In this document: positions 35,770 to 38,367 of the stretch, piece by piece
How the letters are laid out: the number at the start of each line of letters is the position of its first letter
How positions within the stretch are numbered: position 1 is the stretch's first letter
Origin: Bacillus pumilus
Lineage (GTDB): Bacteria; Bacillota; Bacilli; Bacillales; Bacillaceae
Length of the DNA: 64,000 bases
Assembly: GCF_003431975.1 (NCBI RefSeq)
Contig: NZ_CP027116.1
Coordinates: 1,798,001-1,862,000, forward strand
Reading direction: 5' to 3'
The notes under the pieces: generated by a model
What the model was told of the DNA's origin: nothing
What the model saw: the letters and a program-made list of their open reading frames with translations, nothing else
Database searches by the model: none
Position numbers and translations under genes: made by a program

Positions 35770-35861
35770 TGTAATGAGGTCAGATATGTACTGAATAATC
35801 TCTTTATTTCTTTTTTGATCCGTCACAATTCTTTTGGCATTCATGATTTGCTCATATGTAC
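35770..35861 (-). pseudogene. Decayed LXG toxin fragment
   Basis: The minus strand reads VHM, then after a frame change NAKRIVTDQKRNKEIIQYIS DL. This corresponds to VHMGIKNAKSIVKDQKKALKTIFQDIDDL in the intact LXG protein at 36.7-38.4 kb. The DNA is also similar over about 50 bases (GTACATATG, ATGCCAAAAG, GGATCAAAAAA). It is a leftover of a second LXG gene or of a tandem copy. The rest of 35587-35938 shows only a 14-base palindrome (GGCACTTAAGTGCC, 35881-35894) and no gene. Confidence 0.65.
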
Positions 35862-35938
35862 AAAATCACCGCAGAACCTAGGCACTTAAGTGCCCAATGC
35901 GCTCAGTATCCGCAGATTTTAAACTTAAAAATTTTTTG

Positions 35939-36354: not shown

Positions 36355-36708
36355 TTAACTCAGTTGCCACATTAGTAACTCGATTTTTTCTATTAATTCG
36401 CCTTTTTGTTTCGTTTCAAATGATGTGACTGGATTTTCCCAATTAAAATCTTCTACTACATCTAAACCATAAACCCCTTCCGGATCTGCTTCCGGATACC
36501 ATCCGACATCTAGCAATATATTTTTCTTGCTATTCTTGATTTGTAATAAATCTTCAGTGAAATTTAGCCATTTATCATAATCATCTTTATTGAGTAATTC
36601 CGGATCTAACTCTGTTAAAGAATTGTAACTAGTTTCCCACCCTGAAGGTATTCTAAGTGGCTGAAGTTTATATTTAGGAAGTTTTTTCTGAATTTTCATT
36701 TTAAACAC
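36355..36708 (-). CDS. Probable cognate immunity protein of the LXG toxin
   Basis: A 117-residue acidic protein (LQPLRIPSGWETSYNSLTEL, LLDVGWYPEADPEGVYGLDV, WENPVTSFETKQKGELIEKI). It starts 10 bp after the toxin stop, within a few bases of AAGGAG. The start is GTG at 36708 or ATG at 36699. I do not recognise the family with certainty. The position directly behind the toxin, small size and acidity are what is expected of an immunity protein that binds the toxin domain. Confidence 0.65.
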   Translation of the reverse strand: MFKMKIQKKLPKYKLQPLRIPSGWETSYNSLTELDPELLNKDDYDKWLNFTEDLLQIKNSKKNILLDVGWYPEADPEGVYGLDVVEDFNWENPVTSFETKQKGELIEKIELLMWQLS

Positions 36709-36717
36709 TTACACTCC

Positions 36718-38367
36718 TTATGATCTTGGTTTAGCCATTTTTAAATACTCTTGTAATCGATTACCTGCTAATGGATGACCATGAAAAACTCCACTTGAAG
36801 TTAGTTCTGCTCTAACCCAAGACGTTTCTACTCCTAAATCAAAACCAACTGGACGACCAGTATTATAAATAAAATATACTGCACCTTTCTCGTTTTCTAC
36901 AATTAATCCTTTTTTTAAAGCTTCTTTCTCAATAACTTTATTTTTTATATCAGGCAAATACTGTGCCTGCTTTCGTCCTGTTTCACTAAATAGCTTAGCT
37001 TGTTCAGCTGTTTTGGCTTTTAAATGTTTAAAACCGTGTTCTGTATAGGTAGCATTGTTGATTTGAGTTCTAAAGTCTTTTCTACTGTAGTAGTGGTTAT
37101 GAGCTATTTTGTCGTGTCTCTTTGAGATGTTTGGAGTTAGTTCCATCTTCCCATGAAACCCTTTCGCCCCAAACGGCAAAAGCATTCCCTGCGCCGCATT
37201 CATACTCGCTTCCTGCTGTTCTTTCGAGACCTTATTTCCAAACATATCACGCCCCGTAATCGCTTCGCTGAAGCCGTTGGTGGCGGTGAGGCCATATAAG
37301 CCTTTTTGAGAAGTTTTCAACGCATCAAAAGACTTTTGTGATGTCTTGTAAATATCGACTGCTCTGACTGCGGCTGATGTGGCTTGGGTCGTTTTATAGA
37401 CGGCTTTTCCGCCTTTGAAAATACGCCCTGCCCAGCCGACGATTGGGATATAGCCTGCTGCTGCCATGCCGCCTGCGGCGACGCGTTGTCCTGCTGTAAG
37501 TTCTTCGCCTGTGATCGGGTCAACGCCTGTAGCAGCACGTTTTGCATCGTTCACACCTGTCAATTCATTGACGATATTTCCGCCATAATCGAGTGCTTTT
37601 TCATGCCAAGGACGGTTGGCGAGGGCTTCTTGTTCCTTTGCGATCTCGCGGGCTTCCTGTTGTTCTTTTTTGATTTGCAGATATTCAGAAGTTTGCTTCT
37701 CAATATCGCTTTTTGCTTTGTAGATTTCACTATTTTGATACGCTTTCTTGTCAAAATTCATCGGAGAAATCGCTTTTCCGTCATTTGTGGCATTCATCAT
37801 TTCTGCGTACAATGCCATTGTAGCCTTCTCCTCAGTCTCTGACAAAGCATATTCATCTTTTAAATGTTGATCAAGCTCTATTAAATCTTTAACCGTTTTT
37901 TTTCGTTCATCTTCCGCATCTGCAATCTTTTCATCAAAGGTTTTACTGTCAAATACCTCTAGAGAAATGAGGTCGTCGATGTCTTGAAAAATCGTTTTGA
38001 GTGCCTTTTTTTGATCCTTTACGATGCTTTTGGCATTCTTGATTCCCATATGTACTGCATTGTCTAAAAAGTGTTCTTCTACAAAGGTGTCGCCTCCAAA
38101 GTTTGTATCATCTAGTGTCCCAGAAACACCTTCATGAAAGGCTTTTTGTTTATCAATGAAGCTGATAAACATGTCTACATTTCCTGCGAGCTCTTTGTAG
38201 AAGCTTTTAATGTTATCGGCACCTTTTCCTGTGAAATCATCACCGAGGTTTGCCACGCCTTGTAGTGCCTTTTTTAAATCTATCATTTGTTCGCGGAGTT
38301 CCTGGTAGTGTTTTGCCCTTGCGTCCATGGCGCTTGTTAGTGCTTTTGCATCAAGTATCTTCCCCAG
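36718..38367 (-). CDS. LXG polymorphic toxin (type VII secreted) with pre-toxin TG linker
   Basis: About 549 residues. An N-terminal LXG helical domain (YQELREQMIDLKKALQGVAN, FTGKGADNIKSFYKELAGNV) directs export by the Yuk/Ess type VII system. A coiled middle (residues about 150-260) follows, then a pre-toxin TG segment (GVDPITGEELTAGQRVAAGG) and a glycine-rich hydrophobic stretch. The C-terminal ~130-residue toxin (TEHGFKHLKAKTAEQAKLF, AVYFIYNTGRPVGFDLGVET, SGVFHGHPLAG) looks like a small RNase-type fold (BECR-like), which is inference. The first ATG (38328) would remove ILDAKALTSA from the usual start. CTG at 38367 lies 9 bases after AAGGAG and gives GKILDAKALTSAMDARAKHY, so it is proposed. 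No small LapA-like partner gene is adjacent. Confidence 0.85.
   Translation of the reverse strand: MGKILDAKALTSAMDARAKHYQELREQMIDLKKALQGVANLGDDFTGKGADNIKSFYKELAGNVDMFISFIDKQKAFHEGVSGTLDDTNFGGDTFVEEHFLDNAVHMGIKNAKSIVKDQKKALKTIFQDIDDLISLEVFDSKTFDEKIADAEDERKKTVKDLIELDQHLKDEYALSETEEKATMALYAEMMNATNDGKAISPMNFDKKAYQNSEIYKAKSDIEKQTSEYLQIKKEQQEAREIAKEQEALANRPWHEKALDYGGNIVNELTGVNDAKRAATGVDPITGEELTAGQRVAAGGMAAAGYIPIVGWAGRIFKGGKAVYKTTQATSAAVRAVDIYKTSQKSFDALKTSQKGLYGLTATNGFSEAITGRDMFGNKVSKEQQEASMNAAQGMLLPFGAKGFHGKMELTPNISKRHDKIAHNHYYSRKDFRTQINNATYTEHGFKHLKAKTAEQAKLFSETGRKQAQYLPDIKNKVIEKEALKKGLIVENEKGAVYFIYNTGRPVGFDLGVETSWVRAELTSSGVFHGHPLAGNRLQEYLKMAKPRS

Follow-up and report, generated by a model that had tools for sequence, protein, structure and literature searches.

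What weapon does an LXG toxin carry when its C-terminal end matches no named toxin family, and how did that weapon come to sit on its carrier? The question is raised by a gene within 64,000 nucleotides of the Bacillus pumilus contig NZ_CP027116.1 (positions 1,798,001 to 1,862,000; the whole stretch is hereafter the window), which encodes an LXG polymorphic toxin of 549 residues and is followed by a gene for a protein of 117 residues. The pair probably specifies an antibacterial toxin exported by the type VII secretion system (T7SS), in which the C-terminal toxin domain (CT, residues 412-549) would act as a metal-independent RNase and the 117-residue protein as its antidote, the two forming a cassette installed by recombination. 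Loci are labelled L, homologous proteins or clusters P, and genomes G; A3 denotes the CT alignment (29 sequences) and A4 the immunity alignment (21 sequences).

The carrier part of the toxin is readily assigned. The LXG and pre-toxin TG domains, described as clear in the initial annotation, are matched in Pfam with the E values of Table 1 (PF04740 at 150 bits against a cut-off of 26.5), accompanied by a sub-threshold WXG100 match within the LXG part. In PHROGs, residues 3-438 of the full toxin match phrog_17521, of unknown function (E 1.3e-140), so a phage-borne LXG chassis is already known; the match takes in about the first 27 residues of the CT. The CT, which contains the motifs quoted for it in the initial annotation, has no Pfam or NCBIfam family, whether the full protein, the CT alone, or the members of A3 one by one are searched. 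Taken alone, its best Pfam match is PF17331 (E 0.087, 13.5 bits, cut-off 23.4), read as chance, and PHROGs returns nothing better than E 0.085, which agrees with the earlier remark that the last ~130 residues fit no toxin family that could be firmly named. The 29 members of A3 yield only their carriers (PT-HINT, Rhs core) or scattered weak matches in Pfam and NCBIfam. The domain is real rather than a chance reading, since at E <= 1e-3 a database of 5.8 billion proteins gave 14 homologues among 151 candidates in one search, on longer proteins, and 24 among 1292 candidates in another, as proteins of 88-259 residues.

The 117-residue protein is equally unassigned: as the initial annotation had it, this acidic protein has no recognised family, with no match in Pfam or NCBIfam and a best PHROG at E 0.013, and scanning the 21 members of A4 one by one in Pfam left the family without assignment. 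The CT and this protein are very probably toxin and immunity. Sixteen loci (14 distinct, since by contig L008 is L059 and L010 is L063) were searched in six frames with the CT profile A2 and the immunity profile A1, the latter built without any locus row. The immunity homologue is the next downstream same-strand frame in each of the ten distinct loci where the CT is wholly or largely present (L007, L008, L009, L011, L012, L055, L056, L057, L058, and L062). The weakest is L062, where the CT profile scores E 1.2e-9 at positions 27-130 and the immunity profile E 1.4e-6 at 48-108. The CT is broken in the four other distinct loci: L060 has an intact immunity gene and L061 a split one, and the six-frame profile search finds no immunity homologue at L010/L063 and L064. 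Distances within the CT family are correlated with those within the immunity family (Mantel r 0.85, p 5e-5, n = 11 including the window), a correlation to which shared descent of the hosts can contribute; r is 0.83 after removal of the near-identical L055, and 0.74 (p 0.002) for the seven closest. The charges are opposite, with a median isoelectric point (pI) of 9.84 for the CT (n = 29) and 4.65 for the immunity family (n = 21). Because the linkage is kept across carriers and the family distances are correlated, the pairing of toxin and immunity gene suggested by the initial annotation is strongly supported.

The immunity family also occurs apart from the toxin. When relatives were searched (150 per search), the CT was found in 11 genomes, in some as fragments, and the immunity family in 30; comparison of the lists leaves 21 genomes with immunity and no CT, and two (G032, G100) with a CT fragment and no immunity. 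Such a surplus is as expected for a defence against a circulating weapon. Open frames of 220-298 residues hold 21 of the 41 immunity matches. Homologues within proteins of 220-250 residues (L012, L058, L072-L084), many of them from genomes in which no toxin was matched, may be tandem copies; in the long proteins examined this reading is tentative, because the match of the front half to the profile is faint (E 0.001-0.14). A clearer double immunity is found in L012 (3432-4184; E 6e-20 and 4e-6).

What the CT does was approached through its predicted structure. An AlphaFold2 model built on A3 (mean pLDDT 86, pTM 0.77) suggests that the CT is probably an LXG-toxin warhead of BECR (Barnase-EndoU-ColicinE5/D-RelE) or RNase A-like fold, without an assigned family. 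Compared by VIA with 996 chains, its six best neighbours by Z are bacterial RNase toxins, at a root-mean-square deviation (rmsd) of 3.0-4.1 over 76-91 residues: MafB2-CT (Z 8.0), YxiD (7.3), CdiA-CT of Yersinia kristensenii (6.6), the E. coli ribonuclease 1tfo (3.9), which we take to be colicin D, and the contact-dependent inhibition (CDI) toxins 7m5f (3.7) and 6cp9 (3.2), presumably RNases as well. RNase 4 follows, and the first unrelated row has Z 3.0. Across A3, K36, H37, S50, A57, Q58, Y59, P61, E69, R108, and P121 are present in 29 of 29 sequences, E110 and H118 in 28 (the exception, P0035, lacks its end), and H120 in 26. The CT therefore carries, as RNase toxins do, one conserved histidine early (H37) and another on a late strand (H118), for which a catalytic role is predicted.

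A residue register was obtained by ungapped extension from the alignment end residues printed by VIA. It places His37 on MafB2 His335 and CdiA-CT Ykris His175, His118 on YxiD His528 and CdiA Thr276, and His120 on MafB2 His409 and CdiA Tyr278, residues reported as catalytic or important (PMC9970974, PMC12700104). Other results fit this reading of fold and register less well. In Foldseek the top match, 8hhj, has a probability of 0.90 but an E value of 0.036 (TM 0.37/0.49, rmsd 7.0); none of the other five RNase toxins favoured by VIA is among the 50 matches listed. The register also misfits in places: the N-terminal end of YxiD gives 446 where the histidine is 447 (Lys446 is reported to be needed for toxicity as well), from the C-terminal end of MafB2, His118 falls on residue 407, and for colicin D the extension reaches 608 and 679 rather than the essential His611 and Ser677 (Zhang 2012). 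The BECR/RNase fold guessed in the initial annotation is thus the best reading of the model by VIA, but a less clear one by Foldseek.

On this model, the likeliest role of the CT is that of an RNase that works with two histidines and without metal. The LXG part would carry the toxin out through the YukBA/EssC machine, with the pre-toxin TG domain and linker as the middle and the CT as the warhead. His37, with Lys36, would serve as the base and His118, perhaps with His120, as the acid of a transphosphorylation, a proposal drawn from the residues conserved in A3 and their register on known RNase toxins; Lys36, Arg108, and their neighbours may hold or stabilise the phosphate. RNA as the substrate is suggested by the fold class, and tRNA, a guess from YxiD, would be the likeliest target of cleavage in the competitors' cytosol. 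The acidic partner would cover the basic RNA-binding face of the CT and thereby protect the producer.

Table 1. Features of the toxin locus, in window coordinates
Feature	Position	Strand	Remark
LXG polymorphic toxin gene, 549 aa	36718..38367	-	Read from in-phase CTG at 38367
LXG domain (PF04740), residues 3-202, putative T7SS export	37762..38361	-	Pfam E 7.9e-44
Pre-toxin TG domain (PT-TG, PF14449), residues 256-321	37405..37602	-	Pfam E 3e-21
Linker joining chassis and cassette	37143..37251	-	In G026 a 112-bp direct repeat flanking a different CT
CT, residues 412-549, 138 aa + stop	36718..37134	-	Predicted RNase, BECR / RNase A-like
Codons of CT Lys36-His37	37024..37029	-	Candidate phosphate ligand and general base; 29/29 A3 rows
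Codons of CT Arg108-Ala-Glu110	36805..36813	-	Arg 29/29, Glu 28/29 A3 rows
Codons of CT His118-Gly-His120	36775..36783	-	Candidate general acid; His118 28/29, His120 26/29
Probable cognate immunity protein, 117 aa, pI 4.7	36355..36708	-	Next gene after toxin; family unassigned
Orphan immunity gene CdiI_2 (PF18593), 113 aa	35939..36280	-	Pfam E 1e-15; cassette tail, outside the pair
LXG-coding remnant, 52 bp	35811..35862	-	86.5% identical to LXG part of L055; behind orphan immunity gene

The structural neighbours raise the possibility, a doubtful one in our estimate, that the CT belongs, as a highly divergent branch, to a named family, either Ntox50 (bacterial toxin 50) or Ntox26, and is missed by hidden Markov models (HMMs). 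MafB2 and YxiD head the VIA ranking, and YxiD is assigned to PF15542 in PMC12700104, where MafB2 is 33% identical to it. The CT and toxins of named families also have in common a KH pair and a C-terminal strand resembling His-x-x-Pro, and the conserved KH, Q58, W106, and H118 resemble the Ntox26 signature KHxx[DE], Q, W, H (Zhang 2012). Against this, the CT regions of A3 show no Pfam family, as described above, and no PF15542 HMM match is found for the toxin, the 29 members of A3, or the window's genome. The Ntox50 signature ends in HxVP (Zhang 2012), where the CT has HGHP, and hhalign of the CT against 19 Ntox50 CTs scores no better than shuffled columns, though the Ntox50 set is shallow (Neff 2.1) and leaves out L050-L054. 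The CT is for these three reasons filed outside Ntox50. For Ntox26, compared by its signature, the [DE] place is taken in the CT by Ala40, invariant in A3. EndoU (PF14436) was likewise considered and matches neither the window toxin nor the members of A3; it does match the neighbouring allele L055.

Several known systems come close to the pair. YxiD-YxxD of Bacillus subtilis 6633 is an LXG toxin with an Ntox50/PF15542 CT acting as a tRNase, and YxiD is described as an Ntox50 toxin to which MafB2 is a close structural match (PMC12700104); no sequence relationship between YxiD and the CT was detectable by hhalign with the shallow Ntox50 set, the immunity protein differs, and the CT has an AQYLP motif, an R-x-E strand, and HGHP where YxiD has HxVP. 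The pair MafB2-CT/MafI2 of Neisseria meningitidis B16B6, of RNase A-like fold, has another carrier and immunity protein, and MafB2 shares 13-14% identity with the CT in structural alignments. Its charges are opposite, as are those of the CT and the 117-residue protein, and MafI2 is thought to block access of RNA by complementary charge (PMC9970974). The same source describes the immunity protein of CdiA-CT of Y. kristensenii as eight helices. That toxin, a member of the RNase A superfamily delivered by CDI, is 11% identical to the CT.

It is unlikely that the fold is right and the chemistry is something other than RNA cleavage, such as DNase activity or the modification of nucleotides or proteins: all six best VIA neighbours are RNase toxins (7m5f and 6cp9 presumably so), and no acidic metal-binding motif is apparent by eye among the invariant K36, H37, S50, Q58, E69, and R108. 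Fold likeness alone shows no function, nevertheless, and Glu69 (29/29) and Glu110 (28/29) are conserved acids. Additionally, five of six LXG toxins of B. subtilis NCIB3610 acted as DNases (PMC8321402), and the ART-like (ADP-ribosyltransferase-like) Rhs toxin Tne5 illustrates that guesses from fold can mislead (PMC13285283).

The 3.94-Mb genome contains six LXG genes (PF04740 search) and, at 3.06 Mb, a type VIIb (T7SSb) cluster with an EssC-family ATPase (TIGR03928, 1779 bits) and WXG100, YukD, and YukC matches. This cluster includes a 979-residue protein with a PF12698 match in what we take, from the yuk/yue gene order of B. subtilis, to be the YueB place. Because an LXG domain and an EssC-family ATPase with these neighbours occur in one genome, type VII export of the toxin, as the initial annotation proposed, is plausible.

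The locus further bears on how the cassette was acquired. The G+C content is 43.8% from LXG to linker, 33.8% in the CT, 32.2% in the immunity gene, and 30.4% in the CdiI_2 gene, against 40.9% for the window. A variable CT on a conserved chassis, as in LXG toxins, is found within the genome: the DNA of two other LXG genes is 96% and 98% identical to the window gene over about 1.25 kb, the matches end at 37160 and 37169, within 35 bp of the CT, and the CTs differ, one paralogue carrying Tox-HNH-EHHH and the other a warhead without an assigned family. In the second paralogue (L085 1374-2861), the CT without a Pfam family is followed by an unassigned neighbour of 151 residues. At another LXG locus of the same genome (L087 1388-5246), a CT-immunity cassette is tandemly duplicated behind an intact gene, with a third immunity-like gene after it.

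A sister genome, G026, holds the locus in a different state (L055 4794-7268), flanked on either side by the neighbours seen in the window. There the order is LXG, EndoU CT (PF14436, E 2e-24), a 111-residue protein, a 175-residue open reading frame (ORF), the immunity gene, and a CdiI_2-like stretch split over two frames; the 175-residue ORF comprises the linker and a window-type CT, an orphan cassette. The EndoU CT is an alternative warhead on the same LXG chassis, differing from the window CT in its known family and its downstream protein. The linker occurs twice in G026 (112 bp, 95.5% identical, 864 bp apart), and the window DNA aligns to both sides of the locus, 37143-37251 aligning to both linker copies. 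Two copies imply that either the window is a product of recombination or G026 is a product of insertion; from the alignment, the window looks like the recombined state. An LXG chassis already in place would then have received the cassette through homologous recombination at the short linker repeat. Recombination of polymorphic toxins with standalone toxin cassettes (PMC3482391) and between tandem immunity genes (PMC9484751) has been described, and the two states, tied by the 112-bp repeat in sister genomes, would offer a concrete example of a T7SS chassis exchanging its warhead. The CdiI_2 gene behind the pair has no matching toxin directly beside it, and DNA homologous to this tail follows the immunity gene in L055 and L061.

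The LXG genes of the window, L055, L085, and L086 seem to start at CTG. In the window gene, the frame is open across all 549 residues and the CTG sits 9 nt downstream of GGAG; the first in-frame ATG, GTG, or TTG is the ATG at 38328, 13 codons later, where ORF callers begin, and without the CTG the LXG domain is clipped. All four alleles picked up by the start-context pattern (those just named) have the CTG, and it is kept with its ribosome site across three paralogues and one sister strain. In P0004 of B. safensis a Met is recorded at the equivalent place, which means that this gene has a conventional start codon or that a different codon was allowed in its annotation. It is quite improbable that the locus is a dead remnant whose toxin is not made, with decay recorded in the CTG that replaces a usual start, the LXG debris behind the operon, the orphan immunity genes, and the broken CTs of related genomes G035 (L061), G017 (L060), and G032 (L010/L063), because the 549-codon frame is open, the cluster P0001 (22 member sequences) has the same fusion with a CT 96% identical, the CTG and ribosome site are conserved as stated, and the candidate active-site residues are intact.

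The homologues P0001 and P0004 come from Bacillus pumilus and B. safensis. The CT is borne by diverse carriers. By Pfam or source name, LXG with PT-TG carries it in the window, L056, L057, and L058; LXG without PT-TG in L062; PT-TG without LXG in P0003/L009; WXG100 in P0006; Rhs in P0002, P0005, and P0052 by name and weakly in L007; PT-HINT in P0034; and the core of an extracellular contractile injection system (eCIS) in L011 (E 6.4e-31). We give roughly even chances to the wider proposal that these form a clade of two-histidine RNase toxins not catalogued before, marked by K-H ... AQYLP ... R-x-E ... H-x-H-P and served by a dedicated immunity family. It would span five or more carrier types (LXG, WXG100, Rhs, that of the type VI secretion system (T6SS) among them, HINT, and eCIS), small Sec-secreted-looking proteins with the CT only, and at least three phyla, two of which come each from single metagenome-assembled contigs; the immunity genes, in related genomes commoner than the toxin and often long and tandem-like, would point to defence. 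If the RNase reading of the pair holds, a domain that Pfam and NCBIfam leave without a family would gain a probable active site together with its immunity family. Results from a single series of mutants could then guide how LXG, Rhs, WXG100, and eCIS effectors are annotated across several secretion systems.

The sole solved sequence relative of the CT is 8qjc_A, named 'T6SS-associated Rhs core and toxin domain', which we take to be the structure of the Kielkopf et al. 2024 paper. It is matched at residues 1429-1522 with the single CT sequence (E 3.8e-9) and at 1428-1525 with A3 (E 9.1e-16). Because this relative lies inside a solved T6SS Rhs structure, the pair cannot with certainty be called undescribed, as the initial annotation suggested, though in Pfam and NCBIfam the CT is unassigned. 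The KH, R-x-E, and HGHP elements are kept in 8qjc; the differences are that about 100 of 138 CT positions align, that AKYM stands where the CT has AQYLP, and that the carrier belongs to a T6SS. Eleven proteins of 204-213 residues, mostly metagenomic (P0036-P0044, P0049, P0050), contain the CT alone behind a start that looks by eye like a signal peptide, and are possibly secreted stand-alone versions. Finally, the LXG protein of L062 (6049-8079) has a CT like the 8qjc branch, with AKY for AQYLP, and a divergent immunity protein; L062 and 8qjc perhaps represent a second CT subfamily.
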